Source: Gryganskiella cystojenkinii
Lineage: Eukaryota; Mortierellomycota; Mortierellomycetes; Mortierellales; Mortierellaceae
Direction of reading: 5' to 3'
Assembly: GCA_015852425.1 (NCBI GenBank)
Contig: JAAAIG010000802.1
Span: 1-17,512 of the forward strand
DNA: 17,512 bases
Position numbers and translations under genes: made by a program. The notes under the pieces were generated by a model. It was given only the letters and a program-made list of their open reading frames with translations. It made no database searches and had not been told where the DNA came from. The stretch's first letter is position 1, and each line of letters begins with the position of its first letter. Below are positions 1-17,512 of this stretch, in pieces.

Positions 1-319
1 ATGCCTTCCAGCCCCTCTGCGAGTCTATGACTGCTCAAGGCATGGGTCGCTGGTAGAGAGAGCCTTAATTCTTCCGAACCCTTAATCATGATTTGCCTTC
101 TCCTTTTTGGAGTCGGCGGGAAACTAAGGATTTTCTAAGCTTCGCCCAAACACGTCCAAAATGTTTTAACAGTCACGGGCGAGTCGAGTCAATTTTTTGA
201 GCACCGAGCTTGAGGCATGGCGCGATCTGATTTCATTCTTTTTGCTCCATTCGAGTTGATCCATTACCGCACTGCACCACACATCCACATTACACAACAA
301 CGCCACGACACTACACAAC
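1..319. other. Upstream region of the macrodomain gene, no gene seen
   Basis: No reading frame here has recognisable protein character. The stretch presumably holds the 5' untranslated region and promoter of the macrodomain gene that starts at 320. The bases just before that ATG are rich in C and A, as is common around fungal starts. I could not assign a specific promoter element. Confidence 0.4.
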
Positions 320-2782: not shown

Positions 2783-3404
2783 TGCGAATTGGACCTTACT
2801 CGACTCGATGAACGAAATGAACATGGTGACCATGGCGAACATGTTGAAGCGCATCCGGACGAGAATGACAGCACTGACACACGGGAATCTGAATCAATTG
2901 TGAGATTCAAAAAGGAATGTAAAGTCTTTGCTCAATGCATGTAGACTGACTTTGGCCGTTCGTCTACTCTGATTTTGTTTTCGTCCTCAGAGTGTCCCTA
3001 AAATTGCTGTCTTTGAGAACTCACGCCACCAAGACGGGTCATCAAGGTAACCGATCCAACAGCAGGCGAGAATGGACCACAGTCAACGCGAGTTTGTGTC
3101 GAAGGGGACGCAACGACAATCCAACATACACGGTCAAAACTGAGATTGGTGTTGGTTCATCTTTTTGTACTTTGCATATTGTTGTTGTTTTATTTCACGG
3201 ATGCCCGTTTGTGAGCGAAACAGATGAAGAGAGAGATGAAATCGGATATTTTTCATATTGTCTCGTTCCAAGAGTTTGCGCCTTGGTCGACTTTCTGGAA
3301 GCGAAGTCCAAGCAAAAAGGCTATCAAGAAGCTGGACTGAGGACTCGAGGACAGGCGCGAGCGAGGACGACCTTGGAGCAGAGGGAAACGACTGGAGTAC
3401 TTGA
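2783..3404 (+). CDS. Putative acidic, Ser-rich protein (three exons, 5' end unresolved)
   Basis: I do not recognise this protein. Three exons, about 2783-2899, 2991-3046 and 3275-3404, join without breaking frame. The first intron has a GTGAGA donor (2900) and a pyrimidine-rich CCTCAG acceptor; the second starts GTAACC (3047) and ends AAGAG (3274). The product is strongly hydrophilic: first Asp/Glu/His-rich (EHGDHGEHVEAHPDENDS), then RESESISVPKIAVFENS, then a basic Ser stretch (KRLSRSWTEDSR) and an acidic end EGNDWST before the stop. No start codon lies in this frame in the first exon, and no AG separates it from the upstream pyrimidine tract. The 5' connection is therefore unresolved: these may be extra 3' exons of the macrodomain gene, a separate gene, or a decayed one. 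The support is consistent splice phase plus composition only. Confidence 0.4.
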
Positions 3405-3914
3405 CGACTATAGAAAAATACAATAGAAAACTGGTCAACAGTGCTGCTTTTTTCACAGTTTTGTGGCTTGGATTCGCGTGTTGATGAGTATGCACTTACG
3501 TATCTGGATCAGAGGTCTTCTTGGCTCGAGTACTGCAGTGGCGGCCCTTGGAAATGGCACTTCCGGTTGCCACTGTCCACAAGGGTAGACAGGCAAGAAG
3601 CTGGACGGACGACAGGGACGATCCAAGTCATGGGCATGCACGACCCAAGGAATGGGGGACGACTTTGGGCCTAGGAAAACAGCGACGAACTCGCGATGGG
3701 GATCATATGTATAACCATGTTCATTAGCGACTTTTAGCTAAGGGTCGGCCTTTAATCGACCCCACAATATCTCTGGTTGCCTATGCTGTTCCTCCGTTGC
3801 GTTGCGAAAGATCAGCCAGGGTTGGTGTCAAAATCGTGGTGGTGGTGTCAACTTGTTCGTTTTGATGCTACTATAGAGTAATCTAAGAGTTATCTTGATG
3901 AAGTTCGTCTTTAA
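3405..3914. other. Intergenic stretch, no recognised gene
   Basis: Overlapping short open frames exist around 3441-3730, but none resembles a known domain, none dominates in composition, and none connects in frame to the LRR gene downstream. I see no F-box-like segment that could supply the missing N-terminus of that gene. Confidence 0.4.
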
Positions 3915-4967
3915 AAAAGAATTCGAGTCTTGCTTCGAGGAAGATTGTGGACACTTTTATGGTTCAATGCTGAAGGAGGTAGAGCAGGATTGGAGTCTCT
4001 ATCTCTTGAGAGAGTCTACATCCATGCAGAAGTCATTCGCATCCGAAGCCACAGCGTCCAGGCGGACGCTTCTCTTCAGCACATCAATCTAAGCAATGTG
4101 ATCCTGCGTTCCTTGAACCACGATCGACTCGCCCACCGCCTCCACAACCACTCCAATGAGCTTTGTTCGCTTGTTTGGAACTCGATTGCCCTGGGAAACC
4201 GAGAGTCTCTTGCGGCTGCCATGTTCAAGACCCACGAAGGCGCGCTACCAAACTGGCCGCGCCTGACGAAGCTTTCTATCTGCGATGGCCGGTTGTCTGA
4301 TCAGGATGCTTCAGAGATGATCGCGGCTCTACCACCGAGCCTGCTTGATCTGGCTCTGACTCAGTTTGTGGAGATCGGTGCACTGACCGTGACCGATATC
4401 ACCTCGAATTATTCAGCGACGCTTCAATATCTTGACTTGTCGCAAAGCCCTAATATCAGGTCGGCCACGATTCATCGACTACTGTTGTCCTGCGTGTGTC
4501 TCAAATCATTCAAGGCGCCGGTTGTATTCGTTCAATATCTCATCGGTTCTCAAGATTGGGTTTGTGATGGACTTGAGGAGCTGGCAGTTGCTTTCGTGGT
4601 CACAAACGAAAGCCGAACTCGCAAACAAGAACACTCTCGGCATATTATACAGCGACTTGGACGCCTTCGTAACCTCAAGGTCCTGGATATCGTCAACCAC
4701 GATTGGATCCATTGGGTGAGTCATTCTTTGCTGGCTCTCAAGGCAGATTTAGGCGTTAGACAGCTATCCAACCTTCCAAAACTCCACTCTATTGTACTCG
4801 ATGACTTTGACCTGAGCAAAAGGGAAATCGAGTGGATATTGACAAACCTACAAAGCTTGAAAGAAGTTGGACACCCTTTTAAGGTCCATGACGTAGATCA
4901 CCTCAGTGTGCTTGTCGCTCTTGAAGAGTTTAGTCATATCCAAATCAATAATACAGGCGCGTTTTGA
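3915..4967 (+). CDS. F-box/RNI-family leucine-rich-repeat protein, N-terminus missing (probable truncated gene)
   Basis: An open frame of about 350 codons encodes a run of degenerate leucine-rich repeats of the RNI (ribonuclease-inhibitor-like) type: WPRLTKLSICDG, SLLDLALTQF, TLQYLDLSQSPNI, CLKSFKAP, GLEELAVAF, LRNLKVLDIV, LPKLHSIVLDDF, with a final segment ending WILTNLQSLKEV. This order matches the LRR half of the very large F-box/LRR families of Mortierella-type fungi, substrate receptors of SCF ubiquitin ligases by analogy. The frame has no ATG until 4221. An ATG at 3898 opens another frame (MKFVFKKEFES) that overlaps but ends at 4092. No F-box is visible. Either an upstream exon or frameshift near 3990 was missed, or the gene is 5' truncated. 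AATAAA at 4971, four bases after the stop, may serve as its 3' signal. Confidence 0.7.
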   Translation, partial: KRIRVLLRGRLWTLLWFNAEGGRAGLESLSLERVYIHAEVIRIRSHSVQADASLQHINLSNVILRSLNHDRLAHRLHNHSNELCSLVWNSIALGNRESLAAAMFKTHEGALPNWPRLTKLSICDGRLSDQDASEMIAALPPSLLDLALTQFVEIGALTVTDITSNYSATLQYLDLSQSPNIRSATIHRLLLSCVCLKSFKAPVVFVQYLIGSQDWVCDGLEELAVAFVVTNESRTRKQEHSRHIIQRLGRLRNLKVLDIVNHDWIHWVSHSLLALKADLGVRQLSNLPKLHSIVLDDFDLSKREIEWILTNLQSLKEVGHPFKVHDVDHLSVLVALEEFSHIQINNTGAF

Positions 4968-5194
4968 ATGAATAAAACAGCTTATACAGTTGCAGTAGCG
5001 AGGGCCAATACAAAATCGTTCCTTGGAGAATGACAAATGCTTTGTCTCCTTGTAGTTCTTCAGTAAAACATAGCTAGATGACTTTCTATGGCACAAATAC
5101 CACCATGGAAGGTCAAAAACCTGGCTCTGATGCCTCCAAAAGAGACAAACGCGAATTCAAAGTGAGGGATGTGCATGAATAAGGATTTGAAAAG

Positions 5195-5784: not shown

Positions 5785-6306
5785 ATGATGGTCGCAACAG
5801 CTCCCGCCGGACAGAACCCAAATGACAACAACAACAACAACCCTGGTCGAAAGATAACCACGGATATTAAGAACGCCGCGGAGATAGACGAAGCTCGCAA
5901 GAAGCAGTTCACGGATGCTCTGAATATTGCTTCTGCTTGGATCCAAACCTTGCAAGAAAATATCGACGAAGCTCGACGTCTGAGTAACATACTTCCAGCC
6001 ATGCATTCTTCGTTTTACATTGTGCTTGATCGACAGAGGGAAGCTCAACGATTGTTGGCCACCATCGCCAGACAAATGCGCACACTGGACACTCGTCATG
6101 ACATATGCACACGACAGGCAAAGAGGACAAAGCCTAATAAAACAGGACACCGAAAAACTTTGCTCGATGACATCGAAGACAATCTGGCCAGACTTACGGT
6201 ACTACTGCAGGAACAAGATCAACAACTCAACGAACTCCTCACCATTCTAGGGGAGCTGGTGACAGAGAGGCTTGAATTCCGGAGACGCCGAGAGACAGGG
6301 CAATGA
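5785..6306 (+). CDS. Small helical/coiled-coil protein, function unknown
   Basis: This single-exon frame encodes 173 residues. The start is the first of two adjacent ATG codons, just after an acceptor-like CTCAATAG. The N-terminus has an Asn run (DNNNNN, 14-19) and looks disordered. Residues 30-105 read as amphipathic helices (EIDEARKKQFTDALNIAS, WIQTLQENIDEARRL, LDRQREAQRLLATIARQM). A basic linker at 108-124 leads to a second long helix at 125-168 with heptad-like leucines (LLDDIEDNLARLTVLLQEQ, LLTILGELVTERLEF). No catalytic motif, signal peptide or membrane segment is present. Two helical segments with a loop recall small subunits of multi-protein assemblies, but I cannot name a family. A pyrimidine-rich 3' region and AATAAA at 6538-6543 follow, consistent with a real gene end facing the minus-strand SH3 gene. 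Confidence 0.72.
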   Translation: MMVATAPAGQNPNDNNNNNPGRKITTDIKNAAEIDEARKKQFTDALNIASAWIQTLQENIDEARRLSNILPAMHSSFYIVLDRQREAQRLLATIARQMRTLDTRHDICTRQAKRTKPNKTGHRKTLLDDIEDNLARLTVLLQEQDQQLNELLTILGELVTERLEFRRRRETGQ

Positions 6307-7549: not shown

Positions 7550-7963
7550 GAAAGCCCTTTATCGGCCAAGAAGAAATCACAAGAAATCACAAGAAATCGC
7601 ATCCCAAGATTGCAAGAAATCAATCACACCCCCAAAAAATCGCTCTAGTCTGCTTTTGCAGAGTGGCAAGGTCACTTCCTCGTCCTGCAAACCAAAGTGT
7701 GAAATTTGTTCTCATACATGCCCTCTCTCGTTTTCTTCTCTCTTCTTCTTTCTTCTCTTAATCCTCTTCATCCCCATCCCTCTTCGGCATTTGACCCATC
7801 ATCGCTCTCTCCCCCTCTCCCCCCTCTCCTTTTCTCTCTCTCTCCCTCTCCTTCCTCGCTCTCCCTCACCACTACCATGTAAGTCGTCTCTCCACCGTCT
7901 CTACTTTATCCTACGGTTACCCTGGCTGCATTGGTCCTCGATCAACGTCGTTATAACAGCAAA
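7550..7963 (+). promoter_or_regulatory. Divergent intergenic/leader region, strongly pyrimidine-rich, with a possible leader intron
   Basis: This stretch separates the minus-strand SH3 start (7549) from plus-strand LRR remnants. It contains a 10 bp tandem repeat (7571-7600) and a long run of C and T from about 7715 to 7870. GTAAGT at 7879 and TTATAACAG ending at 7959 could bound an 81 bp leader intron just before an ATG at 7964. A shared promoter is plausible but is inference from arrangement. Confidence 0.4.
7571..7600. repeat. 10 bp tandem repeat AAGAAATCAC x3
   Basis: Two exact units and one with a single change (AAGAAATCGC) lie back to back. Another AAGAAATCA copy follows at about 7614. 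Confidence 0.85.
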
Positions 7964-8290
7964 ATGTCAAAAAAATGGTCCCGGGTAACTCTGGCTGGCT
8001 ACTGGTGGTCGGTATCTAGCACTAAAACGAACAAGTTGACACCACCAGCGATATTCTCCGATCACATGGCCTCCGATCAGATGAAAATGATCGTGTTAGT
8101 TGATCGCTGTCACCCTCACTTGCGTCTGAAATATCTAACCCTGACCGTGGATCCATCCATGGTCTATAGCTTGGAGAGGATTGAATCTGACACGCTCGAG
8201 TCTTTGGTCGTGAACTTTCATTTTCACATGAGAAAGAAGAGGAGGCAGAGGACACTGAGACTCGTCAGTAAACAATGGCGGAATCGTTGA
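7964..8290 (+). pseudogene. Fragment of an F-box/LRR-family gene
   Basis: A 108-codon frame opens at ATG 7964, which may be preceded by a leader intron (7879-7959). Its second half has LRR character: HPHLRLKYLTLTVD, then SLERIESDTLESLVVNFHF. It ends in a very basic stretch (MRKKRRQRTLRL) before the stop. It has no F-box and is far shorter than intact F-box/LRR proteins. It stops just before the outer edge of an inverted duplication (8308) whose spacer and second arm continue the same family in the same orientation. I infer that these pieces were one gene, later split. Confidence 0.5.
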
Positions 8291-8307
8291 TAGGAGACAA
8301 AAAGGAG

Positions 8308-8667
8308 ATCATCGCATCTTGCGATCTCTCAAGCGATTTATTATCCGTCATTTCTCCAGGAGAAGGGACCCACATGTATTATGATGTCCTCTCTGCAACG
8401 ATGCCCGGGCTTAGAAGATGGACCAACGTCGCCAGTTGATCATAGGCTCGGAGTCCCGCACTGAGTTCTGTCGCCCAGGCTGGGTCAATGATTCGATCGC
8501 CGGCTGCATTCGCAAAGGTGCCTTCACCAAGACGGTATTGACAGATATCAAGTCGAGTGATACCGGTCATAGGAACCTGAAGGACTTGCAGCTGAGCGCA
8601 GCCCCGCCAAGATCATTCCACTTATTCGGGAGTGTCCACGGTCAGGTAGTGGAAAAATAGAAGTAGA
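8308..8667 (-). repeat. Inverted repeat, left arm (antisense copy of the LRR remnant)
   Basis: These 360 bases are the reverse complement of 8946-9305 with no indels. The inner 286 bases (8382-8667) match without a mismatch on reading; the outer 74 bases carry about ten substitutions. Read on the minus strand, the arm encodes the same LRR segment as the right arm (GITRLDICQYRLGEGTFANA). Because the spacer and right arm form a continuous sense LRR remnant, this left arm is probably the inserted inverted duplicate. Confidence 0.93.
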
Positions 8668-8689
8668 ACTCTGTCCCCATTCTTACTTC

Positions 8690-9315
8690 TAAACCTTAGA
8701 GACCAGGTCTGTGGCGACAAAGGATACGTGGATAACAGAGTAATCATCGCGAAAGTACGTAGATTGGGCTGGCGAAAAATACACCTCTTGACCTCGGATT
8801 CCTTTTCATCCAGACCGAGTATCGACGCTTTGCTGTCGAATGCGCACTCGCTCGAGTCACTGGTCACCGAGGAAGTGACTATGCAAGTTTCTACCAGTTC
8901 CTAGAACAAGCCGTCCGATTGAAGGAAGTCAAGACCATCGAAAGGTCTACTTCTATTTTTCCACTACCTGACCGTGGACACTCCCGAATAAGTGGAATGA
9001 TCTTGGCGGGGCTGCGCTCAGCTGCAAGTCCTTCAGGTTCCTATGACCGGTATCACTCGACTTGATATCTGTCAATACCGTCTTGGTGAAGGCACCTTTG
9101 CGAATGCAGCCGGCGATCGAATCATTGACCCAGCCTGGGCGACAGAACTCAGTGCGGGACTCCGAGCCTATGATCAACTGGCGACGTTGGTCCATCTTCT
9201 AAGCCCGGGCATCGTTGCAGAGAGGACATCAGAATACATGTGGGTCCTTTCTCCTGGAGATACGAAGGATAATGAATCACTTGCGAGATCGCAAGAGGGG
9301 ATGATAATTTTCTAA
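8690..9315 (+). pseudogene. F-box/LRR-family pseudogene (C-terminal LRR part)
   Basis: Family-typical segments appear in order but in changing frames. One frame gives LGWRKIHLLTSDSF, PSIDALLSNAHSLESLVTEE (about 8701-8901) and then meets TAG at 8902. The next frame gives FYQFLEQAVRLKEVKTIE (about 8889-8943). The first frame returns with WRGCAQLQVLQV, TGITRLDI and DPAWATELSAGLRAYDQL up to the stop at 9313-9315. The pattern (GW+KI.LL....S..LL..A.SLE.L, then W.GC..L..L) is that of F-box/LRR proteins of Mortierella-like fungi. At least two frame changes and one internal stop show it is broken. The right arm of the inverted repeat overlaps its 3' half. Confidence 0.65.
8946..9305 (+). repeat. Inverted repeat, right arm
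   Basis: This is the partner of 8308-8667; coordinates of paired bases always sum to 17613, so there are no indels. The 278 bp spacer (8668-8945) separates the arms. This arm continues the sense LRR reading of the spacer and so appears to be the original copy. Confidence 0.93.
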
Positions 9316-9424
9316 GGGTACTGAATGATTGGAGTGACTTAGTTTGCAGGTACTTTAATGTAGAAGAACGGGAAGAATATAGCGGACAAAACGTATCACT
9401 TATTTACTGACCATAGAGACGGGC

Positions 9425-9554: not shown

Positions 9555-10793
9555 TCATGTGGGTTTCCACTTCTCATCCAGAGGGTTCTCAGGGTTCACA
9601 TCCAGAAATCCTGCATTCGTCCTGTTGCGCCTTTGGAGCAAATAACTAAACTCTTTCCGATGCTCGCTCACATACGAGGGCAGGTCTTCATTGTTTTCGA
9701 CATAAACAAATTGGTCCAAATCCCTTTCAAAGAGATCGCGACCCTCCTTGACGGCATTAAGGATCCACTGTCGACTCTTGTACTGGTCTTGGTTATGATC
9801 GAAATGGGAATAAGACTCGACCTTGGAGGTCACCTGGGCGATCGTGGGGAAACACCAAGAACAATGAAAGCAGGCATCGTCGACATAGGTGGCCAGACTA
9901 CTTTCTCGGAGACCCCGCATTTTGTTCCCTGCCTCGCGCCAGTCGTCACCGGAGAGATCACGCATTATCTTTGCTTGGGGGTCATCAGATCGAGTCTTCT
10001 GTGACCAATAATCAGAAGAGCGGTATCGAGCGACAACGGGTCCATGCCAGAGAGGTCCTGTGTGTTGATATTCGTAAGAATAGTAATAAAACTGACATGC
10101 GAAACGGAAGAGATCACTGCCAGAGCCTTCGGCGCCATCACTAAAGAGTCGTCCGTTTTCGGTCGAGAGGTCTTGGTCCCTCATCGCTTGAAGAACAGAC
10201 CTCCGGGGGAGTTCGTCCATATCTGATATCATGAGCCAGTCGCCGTCTCTGGGTCTGTGGGTATCGAGGGTTGTCCAGAATCCGAGGTTTCGTGTAACTT
10301 TCTCTCTATCCCAACCTGAGGACTGTGGATCAAACTTCTCGGCGGGAAGAACAACGTGAAGGATCTGGCGACGAAATTTTTCGAACCGCGGTTCGTTGAG
10401 GCGAAAGTACAGGGGTTTTGGCTGCCCTGCGAAGGTTCGTTCGGCTTCGATGATAACGAACCAGTCGACATGTTGAGAGAGTTCATTCAGACGAAGCTCA
10501 AGCAGATCGAGTTCGCTGTGAAAGAGAATGATGTCGTAAATCAGGGGTTGATATGAATCCTGAGTACTGCTGACGGCATCCGTGTTGCTGTTGTTTGAGA
10601 ATCGTGAGCTGGACCTGAAAGAGATGTCGTGTCGTTCCTGGACGATCAGCAAGAGTATAAAAGTTGCGACAAGATATAGGGACAGTTTTGCTGCGAAGGT
10701 TTTTTTTACGAAACGATGGCGGATCGATATTGAGGATGACCACCACCTAGAGTTGGAATCGTGCTGTGAGGCTAGTGGCAAAAGAGTGGCCAT
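9555..10793 (-). CDS. Glycosyltransferase family 17 (beta-1,4-N-acetylglucosaminyltransferase-like), type II membrane protein
   Basis: An uninterrupted frame encodes 412 residues. A short basic cytosolic N-terminus (about 1-36) precedes one membrane anchor (LSLYLVATFILLLIV, 37-51), then a Ser-rich stem and a lumenal catalytic domain: the topology of Golgi transferases. GT17 hallmarks are YDIILFHSELDLLELRLNEL (86-105), VDWFVIIEAERTFAG (109-123), GDWLMISDMDELP (184-196) with its acidic DMDE metal/nucleotide-binding motif, FYYYSYEY (235-242) and HCSWCF (310-315). The animal relative (MGAT3) adds bisecting GlcNAc to N-glycans using UDP-GlcNAc; what fungal members transfer and to what is not established by this sequence. 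The length is normal and I see no frame break. The start at 10793 gives a complete anchor; an in-frame alternative downstream would lose part of the tail. Confidence 0.93.
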   Translation of the reverse strand: MATLLPLASQHDSNSRWWSSSISIRHRFVKKTFAAKLSLYLVATFILLLIVQERHDISFRSSSRFSNNSNTDAVSSTQDSYQPLIYDIILFHSELDLLELRLNELSQHVDWFVIIEAERTFAGQPKPLYFRLNEPRFEKFRRQILHVVLPAEKFDPQSSGWDREKVTRNLGFWTTLDTHRPRDGDWLMISDMDELPRRSVLQAMRDQDLSTENGRLFSDGAEGSGSDLFRFACQFYYYSYEYQHTGPLWHGPVVARYRSSDYWSQKTRSDDPQAKIMRDLSGDDWREAGNKMRGLRESSLATYVDDACFHCSWCFPTIAQVTSKVESYSHFDHNQDQYKSRQWILNAVKEGRDLFERDLDQFVYVENNEDLPSYVSEHRKEFSYLLQRRNRTNAGFLDVNPENPLDEKWKPT

Positions 10794-15680: not shown

Positions 15681-16020
15681 TCTTCTTTCTCATGTTTCCT
15701 CTCGCCTCCCTCTTCTTTTTCCGAGTGACGTACCGAGGCGATACGCAAACGAACATGGCGGGACAAGGGGTTGAATCAAAGTATCGATCATCTTTGTGCT
15801 GAAAAAAAATGGCTTGTGTGCTGTACTCTCTGTTTCTGTACTGTTTTTTATGCGTGTGATGCACGGTGCTCGAGCCAAATCTTAAAAAGTTGACAGCGAC
15901 AGTGCTGTGAGAGTTCGCGAAACGTTTAAGGAACAGGTCTGCTCTTTTTCTCTAGCCTCTATCCTCGGCTCTCACTCTCTTAGATTCCTCATTACCATCA
16001 CTCCTCTTTGATCTCCCTCA

Positions 16021-16122
16021 CCTTCAACTCTTTCATCAACTCTTTCATCAGCTCTTTGAACTGTTACATCAACTCATTCGTGTGCTCTTTCATCAACTTT
16101 TACATCAACACTTTCATCGACT
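16021..16122. repeat. 12 bp-period repeat (TTTCATCAACTC-like) in the leader of the AMP-binding gene
   Basis: About eight degenerate copies of a TTTCATCAAC(T/A)C unit are present, some interrupted by short insertions. In the frame of the downstream gene they would read as repeats of S-F-I-N or N-Y-I-N, but no ATG in frame lies upstream, so they are placed in the 5' leader. Confidence 0.7.
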
Positions 16123-16139
16123 CGGTGTTCCTGATCACA

Positions 16140-17512
16140 ATGCTCTCCGCCATAGACGCTCATGCCGACGTTATGATTCCCCCGCCTTGTGCAAGCATGC
16201 GCCAGTGGGACTTTCTCCACCTCCCGCTGGACAAGCAGTTGGAAGCACTAGGCGATGACGCCATGCCGCCATCCTTTTCTGCTGTATACTTTCTCACTAA
16301 GTGGGCTCGAGAACTGCCCGATGCACCGTGTCTGTTGGTACCCAATGCCCAGGCTACAGCCTATATTACATTCTCTTACGCGCAGTATGACGCTGCCACC
16401 AGTGTTATTGCTCGCTACTGGGCCTCCAAGCTTAATCCGACCTGGCTCGACGTTGGTCGCACACGCGCCATGGTAGCACTTGACTCTCCTGTTGCACTAC
16501 TCGTCAAAGACTTGCCCACTTCCCATTTTCTTATTATGTCCTTCTACAAGCTGCGTATCCCTATTCTGCTGATCAGCCCACGTAACAGTCCCTCTGGCGT
16601 GTCGCATCTGATCACCACTAGCAAAGTCAGCGCCATCCTTGTCGAAGACAGTCTCCTATCATTGCTGGAACCAGAAGTCGATCATGTCCCTACCTATTCG
16701 GTCCCACTAATTAACCCCGACGAGCTGCTGCAGATGCCTACTGTTCCACCAATCCCAAATTGTGCCGACGTTGATGGTGAGGATATCGCTATCATTGTTC
16801 ATAGTTCTGGTACTACGGGGTGGGTGTTTTGCCATTCAATTGCAATATGCGTTCTCTTCCATGATTTTTTACGTGCAAATGTTTCCTCTTGCGTTTGATC
16901 TGGTACAGTTACTGCCCTACCTTGTTCATACAAACTAATGTGCAGGTTCGTGTTCTCCCTTTGGTTGTTGGCTGCGACCGTTTAGATTTCCCAAGCTTCT
17001 TCCAACTCCTTATCGCGCCATGTACTTTTCGAGCTTGTACCTTGACATAGCTGACAACTATTATTCACGTCGGAAGCGGAGTGCTATCCTGTTGGTCCTT
17101 CCTATCTTCCATGCCTATGGTGCACGCATCATGCTCACCACGTTTGTGGGCGCCCAAGCGTTAGTGCTACCGCTCACGGCAACATGGCCAGTGAGTGCAG
17201 CACAAGTGGCATACAGTCTCGAGCATAGTAATGCCAGTGTCCTCTGCACTGTCCCAGCCATCATCGAGCAATTGGCGTCCAATACCAGCACACAAAAGGA
17301 ACTTGCGAGATTGCGCATGCTCTATTTCGGAGGAGCGCCGTTGAGCGTCGAGACGGTGCAGCTGCTTCGCGATCAGATGGGTGTCAAGGTGATGGATTTG
17401 TTCGGGACGAGCGAGGGTGGTCTAGTTATGATTGGCTGCGTCGACGCCGACCATGGTGACTCAGATAGCCGCGGCGACGAAATGATGATAGGTCCATTGG
17501 CGCACGCATATA
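16140..17512 (+). CDS. Adenylate-forming (AMP-binding, NRPS-like/acyl-CoA synthetase superfamily) enzyme, 3' end beyond the window
   Basis: Exon 1 runs 16140-16819 and exon 2 from 16986 to the window edge, giving about 402 residues so far. The intron (GTGGGT...GTTTAG, 166 bp) falls inside the core A3 loop; splicing restores HSSGTTGFPK (221-230), the phosphate-binding P-loop. A second acceptor-like GTGCAG further upstream would shift the frame. Other superfamily motifs are LPIFHAYGARIML (about 265-277, A4-like), MLYFGGAPLS (substrate pocket region) and VMDLFGTSEGG (about 362-372, A5), where the Thr-Glu pair helps position ATP and Mg. The enzyme would activate a carboxylic acid as its adenylate. 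Whether it is a free-standing ligase or an NRPS-like adenylation-thiolation-reductase cannot be told, because the C-terminal A8-A10 motifs and any carrier domain lie beyond the edge. The leader's 12 bp repeat precedes the ATG. Confidence 0.88.

Follow-up and report, generated by a model that had tools for sequence, protein, structure and literature searches.

The window analyzed in this work is the whole of contig C867 (17,512 bases), one of the 1050 contigs in the 35-Mb assembly of Gryganskiella cystojenkinii, a fungus of the Mortierellaceae. It contains a large inverted repeat built from gene-derived sequence, and the only other DNA match to the arm in this genome lies on contig C770 (all four candidates were scored). 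The features of the region are listed below, with sequence segments named after the corresponding parts of the C770 gene.

7704 to 7885, plus strand: C/T-rich tract of 182 bp just upstream of the remnant (60-base windows with C+T of at least 85%)
8080 to 8307, plus strand: upstream part of block X, sense, outside the repeat and starting at C770:3820, with 34 of 225 aligned positions mismatched
8308 to 8667, plus strand: left arm, a mosaic of sense X (8308-8417) followed by antisense A' (8416-8667)
8308 to 8381, plus strand: outer left arm, 74 bp, carrying all 10 differences between the arms
8668 to 8945, plus strand: spacer S, 278 bp of sense gene sequence that runs on into the right A block
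8946 to 9305, minus strand: right arm, the mirror mosaic, with sense A up to 9197 and then antisense X' (9196-9305)
9400 to 9414, minus strand: 15 bases identical to antisense C770:4012-4026 (E 0.029), oriented as a decayed continuation of X' would be
9558 to 10790, minus strand: glycosyltransferase family 17 gene outside the repeat, facing it, with a frame that stops about 250 bp short of the right arm

The C/T-rich tract is the longest of six on the plus strand of the window, and on circumstantial grounds it may be promoter- or leader-like. The glycosyltransferase gene is 100% identical to BGZ83_010921 over 78% of the query. It has a paralogue on another contig (C72:4046-4290; L074) with 88% DNA identity over 1,040 bp, and the homology between these two copies stops at approximately 9460, in the interval that separates the gene from the inverted repeat. 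Elsewhere in the window, a 350-aa open frame (3915-4967) has no Pfam match, appears LRR-like by eye, and is encoded by DNA that matches nowhere else in the genome. A protein search with 5785-6303 found a single paralogue, in the same species only. Degenerate 12-bp tandem units (16004-16126) lie at the start of a frame with an AMP-binding domain (15984-16898). No tRNA, and no known RNA family above its gathering score, was found in the window.

Self-comparison of the window showed that the two arms match at 350 of 360 positions in an ungapped alignment. All 10 mismatches (8314, 8316, 8329, 8334, 8339, 8347, 8350, 8352, 8365, and 8381 in left-arm numbering) are located in the outer 74 bp, which leaves the inner 286 bp identical; for 10 differences placed at random among 360 positions, the probability that all land in this outer part is 8e-8. 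A repeat search pushes the arms three bases further inward, to 8670/8943, over one mismatch. These results agree with the first-pass annotation, which had described 360-bp arms without indels around a 278-bp spacer, identical in the inner 286 bp and with about ten changes in the outer 74 bp. The inverted repeat is confirmed as real and far above chance expectation. A scan for inverted repeats with arms of at least 60 bp was conducted on 64 sequences, namely the window and 63 partly overlapping loci that remained after 9 of 72 were removed because they duplicated this region or C770; in this non-random sample, chiefly F-box, LRR-like, and RNAi loci, the sole other case was a smaller repeat on C770 (L006, 6993-7059 and 7327-7393; 67-bp arms, 92.5% identity).

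The C770 relative is an intact gene with a 667-aa open frame (3143-5146, plus strand) and a public model of 602 aa (BGZ83_010086). The model drops 4092-4169 (L005; 78 bp) as an intron though the frame is open throughout, and block X ends at 4172, three bases past this stretch. Relative to this gene, the order of the remnant is X - A' - S - A - X'. Block X (window 8080-8417) corresponds to C770:3820-4172 in forward orientation with 82% identity, and its portion within the left arm (8308-8417) is the sense equivalent of C770:4063-4172. Block A' (8416 to approximately 8670) runs in reverse from C770:4785 down to approximately 4526. Blocks S and A (8673-9197) together correspond to C770:4243-4785 in forward orientation, with S covering 4243 to approximately 4525, and block X' (9196 to approximately 9305) corresponds to C770:4172-4063 in reverse. 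Each arm combines two segments of the gene that point in opposite directions, and the X/A' joint, at which two bases (AG) can be assigned to either side, is common to both arms. About 70 bp (C770:4173-4242), which lie between X and S in the gene, are absent from the remnant.

This block mapping bears out the earlier suggestion that the gene's own sequence had been duplicated in inverted form and revises how the parts were read. The left arm had been taken as an inverted copy of the 3' part of the gene; its outer 110 bp are in fact sense, and only the inner ~250 bp are inverted. The spacer and right arm had been read as a single sense remnant, which holds up to 9197 and fails beyond, where the antisense X' begins. 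Upstream of 8080, homology to the gene does not rise above that of shuffled sequences (95 of 300 reach the score). On the other side, the 15-base match at 9400-9414 is suggestive of a decayed continuation of X'; gapped alignments of a longer right arm were not significant against either C770 (64 of 300 shuffles scored as high) or the left flank in the window (216 of 300). The window (31-111) and C770 (1-97) also share sequence near their left contig ends, in one stretch of 53 bp with 92% identity and another of 25 bp with 100%.

Judged from its sequence, the feature is a dead fragment (pseudogene) of an F-box-like gene, homologous to the intact gene on C770 with frame breaks. Stop codons interrupt both 8674-9246 (two TGA, one TAG, and one TAA) and 8084-8416 (one TGA and one TAG), and stops are present in all six frames of the remnant. 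The C770 product scored 23.2 bits against PF12937, below the cut-off of 24.3, and matched no LRR profile; the remnant piece 8763-9062 matched nothing in the domain search. Of the original description as an LRR/F-box gene remnant, the F-box-like part is supported, with the match below the cut-off, and the LRR label is that of the first-pass annotation.

Comparison with C770 allows the parts of the repeat to be placed in time. Divergence from the C770 gene is 15.1% in the upstream part of X, 17.8% in S, 12.7% in A, and 2 of 36 positions in the 36-bp inner X. In the outer 74 columns, there are 10 differences between the two arms, 10 between the left arm and C770, and 14 between the right arm and C770; by pattern, both arms agree against C770 in six columns, the left arm alone differs in two, the right arm alone in six, and all three differ in two. 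The outer arms are about as far apart from each other as from C770, which indicates that the inversion is old, nearly the age of the split from C770, an estimate that is loose with only 74 bp. The identity of the inner 286 bp indicates that one arm was recently copied from the other. The contrast between the two parts supports the recent gene conversion or two-step formation that had been suggested. Only 2 of the 10 mismatches in the outer part would still be paired, as G-U wobbles, in a plus-strand transcript, so the pairing there has no sign of upkeep by selection. Just past the core, at 8668-8670, the left side agrees with C770 and the right carries one change; this weakly favors an older left A' that was converted later, three bases being too few to decide.

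Taken together, we consider it probable that inverted template switching of the replication type, or fold-back synthesis, reshaped a pseudogene that was then homogenized. We propose no selected function for it. In a first step, long ago and near the split from the C770 lineage, synthesis through the fragment would have reached gene position 4785, folded back there, and copied X antisense, which yields A|X'. In a second and recent step, synthesis on the left side would have switched to the right arm at a point within the X/X' homology, copied ~286 bp backwards over the X'/A joint, and returned at S, such that the 70 bp were replaced. Alternatively, the second step may have been the homogenization of an older full-length inverted repeat by gene conversion over the inner 286 bp. 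This conversion alternative fits most of the data equally well, and the steps are inferred throughout, with their order and direction based on a single outgroup, C770. The template switch is preferred because it also accounts for the loss of the exact segment between X and S and for the presence of one joint in both arms. The repeat has the features of a template-switch or gene-conversion product, namely a reverse-complement copy, a sharp edge of identity, and a shared joint. A separate 31-nt inverted match (94%, 24 nt exact) links 3840-3870 and 8017-8047, 4.1 kb apart in the window; the latter copy, about 30 bp ahead of the start of the remnant, resembles a templated insertion at a breakpoint.

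A less likely rival for this history is the palindrome of an inverted allele, in which an inversion (X joined to A') was followed by head-to-head duplication, one-sided trimming of the center, and conversion that kept the inner arms alike. The same blocks would result, since S-A-X' is the exact reverse complement of X-A'-S', and arm-to-arm gene conversion is described as maintaining the palindromes of mammalian sex chromosomes (PMC6790999). Nonetheless, this path requires an inversion, a duplication, a central deletion, and conversion, and explains the missing 70 bp no more simply. It differs from reshaping by template switching or fold-back synthesis in formation history alone, and the odds of the two overlap.

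A different question is whether the repeat is active as a young hairpin-RNA locus. Such a locus would be transcribed from the C/T-rich leader or by read-through from the glycosyltransferase gene, its transcript would be cut by Dicer, and Argonaute-bound siRNAs would act on the locus itself and on the C770 gene. The repeat has the long self-complementary stem and the loop of hairpin-RNA (hpRNA/endo-siRNA) loci. The predicted fold of a transcript across it is an almost unbroken stem of -805 kcal/mol (computed with no shuffle control), in line with the earlier statement that such a transcript could form long double-stranded RNA. At the level of domain matches, both Dicer and Argonaute are present in the genome: there are two Dicer-type loci and Piwi-domain matches on six contigs. 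An RdRP gene gave three neighboring matches on C608, and C719 carries a second match that is fragmentary. With Dicer, Argonaute, and RdRP genes present, small RNAs are possible. Further points in favor of this reading are the perfect 286-bp stem and the tract at 7704-7885, which lies upstream in the correct orientation. In rice, inverted pseudogene pairs with hairpin-capable transcripts and mapped small RNAs have been reported (PMC2708354). A literature search found no paper on RNAi in Mortierella, as judged by the titles and abstracts of open-access articles.

The sequences available as targets are few. Exact sharing of at least 21 nt with the repeat involves one gene, on C770, in a few short patches. 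Between 8308-9305 and this gene, 40 sense 21-mers are shared, of which 20 lie in the unpaired spacer, and 14 antisense 21-mers are shared in two patches (8429-8456 and 9196-9221); the other strand of the stem has further short patches that match the gene. These shared 21-mers favor an active locus, but the antisense ones are confined to two patches, the second mostly within the stretch that the BGZ83_010086 model treats as an intron. Also against it, the outer stem is decaying with no compensatory pairing, the arm DNA has no contig match beyond C867 and C770, the C770 gene lacks a comparable C/T-rich tract near its start, and the window has five other such tracts on the plus strand. On balance, we regard an active hairpin-RNA locus as unlikely. 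If transcribed, the repeat would give a long double-stranded RNA and Dicer substrate, whose effect would fall mostly on the locus itself, with a weak effect at most on the C770 gene. The strongest version, in which this relative of Mortierella has a hairpin-RNA gene only just born from an aged, decaying pseudogene, with a template switch that made the perfect 286-bp stem and siRNAs directed against the one close surviving relative BGZ83_010086 in a genome rich in F-box genes, appears very improbable.

The first-pass annotation had proposed small RNAs against many F-box/LRR genes, which is not supported. F-box-like matches in the genome number at least 150 (150 scored of 561 candidates), and none of these loci was matched in a genome search with the arm DNA, which found C770 only. 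Among 63 loci compared, after 12 of 75 that copy this region or C770 were set aside, 16-mers in common with the repeat were found only in L073, which is the window itself. At the protein level, the remnant has at least 64 matches (66 of 175 candidates scored), several of which are fragments of a single gene or belong to the window itself. The best protein relatives listed outside C770 and C867 have 35% identity over most of the length or 55% over 101 residues. Many F-box targets are rejected at the level of DNA similarity among the best candidates scored, and the protein relatives are many but distant. A literature search on F-box/LRR expansion in Mortierella found only an algal genome paper, judged by its title.

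We also considered that short reads from two related copies were mis-joined in assembly. The 1050 contigs and the presence of one or more gap runs (878 N in L046) suggest short reads, and a perfect 286-bp repeat is longer than such reads usually are; a literature search found no published description of the assembly method. However, the window has no N, and the outer arms and flanks are all distinct, such that the 286-bp core is entered from two different sides. With a single spacer closing the sole path, only the orientation of the spacer would be truly ambiguous. Moreover, the genome search found no further copy of the core with >87% identity, and the diverged outer arms are incompatible with collapsed copies of one sequence. 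We consider such an artefact improbable. An origin from a transposon or MITE was rejected, as the left arm and the region upstream match, besides the window, only C770 in genome searches that skip very common words, and the match there is an intact gene.

Plant microRNA genes can originate by inverted duplication, and hairpin siRNAs in mouse oocytes are derived from pseudogenes. The repeat described here provides a readable example of a gene fragment becoming a long perfect hairpin, with both steps datable against an intact relative. Should small RNAs be detected, the repeat would qualify as a young hpRNA locus from a fungal group that diverged early; without them, it would be a case of ordinary pseudogene turnover.

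Several known systems are comparable. In rice, two inverted pseudogene pairs have hairpin-capable transcripts with mapped small RNAs, and one of them has a 185-nt stem and a 1,283-nt loop (PMC2708354). As in those pairs, the G. cystojenkinii repeat consists of inverted pseudogene pieces of a known parent, with a stem of >100 bp and a loop of <2 kb, which are the criteria used in that report. Two differences from the rice pairs as reported are that the arms here are two-segment mosaics with an identical inner part, and that small RNAs were sequenced in rice, whereas the present repeat is known from DNA alone. Among fungi, hairpin small-RNA loci described in PMC9757828 likewise have a stem-loop source, many from coding sequence; those loci were confirmed by reads, and the main text of that article contains neither "Mortierell" nor "Mucor".

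With regard to formation, template switching between inverted repeats in Saccharomyces homogenizes the arms and inverts the spacer (PMC8604942). The homogenized arms of a diverged inverted repeat are similar here, but the yeast examples have arms of 8-16 bp and spacers were searched up to 70 bp, whereas in this case the identity spans 286 bp and the spacer 278 bp. Template switching also creates stems in RNA genes (PMC8794818), where a reverse-complement copy made in a single event gives a perfect stem, as may be the case here. Unlike those RNA-gene hairpins, the G. cystojenkinii repeat has been seen only as genomic sequence, and the largest pattern given in that study, which did not pass quality control there, extends up to 59 bp, compared with 286 bp here. 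By this comparison, the 286-bp tract would fit break-induced copying or ordinary gene conversion better than the short published template switches. These likenesses suggest that the repeat is one of the already known kinds, namely template-switched stems, homogenized inverted repeats, and inverted pseudogenes.
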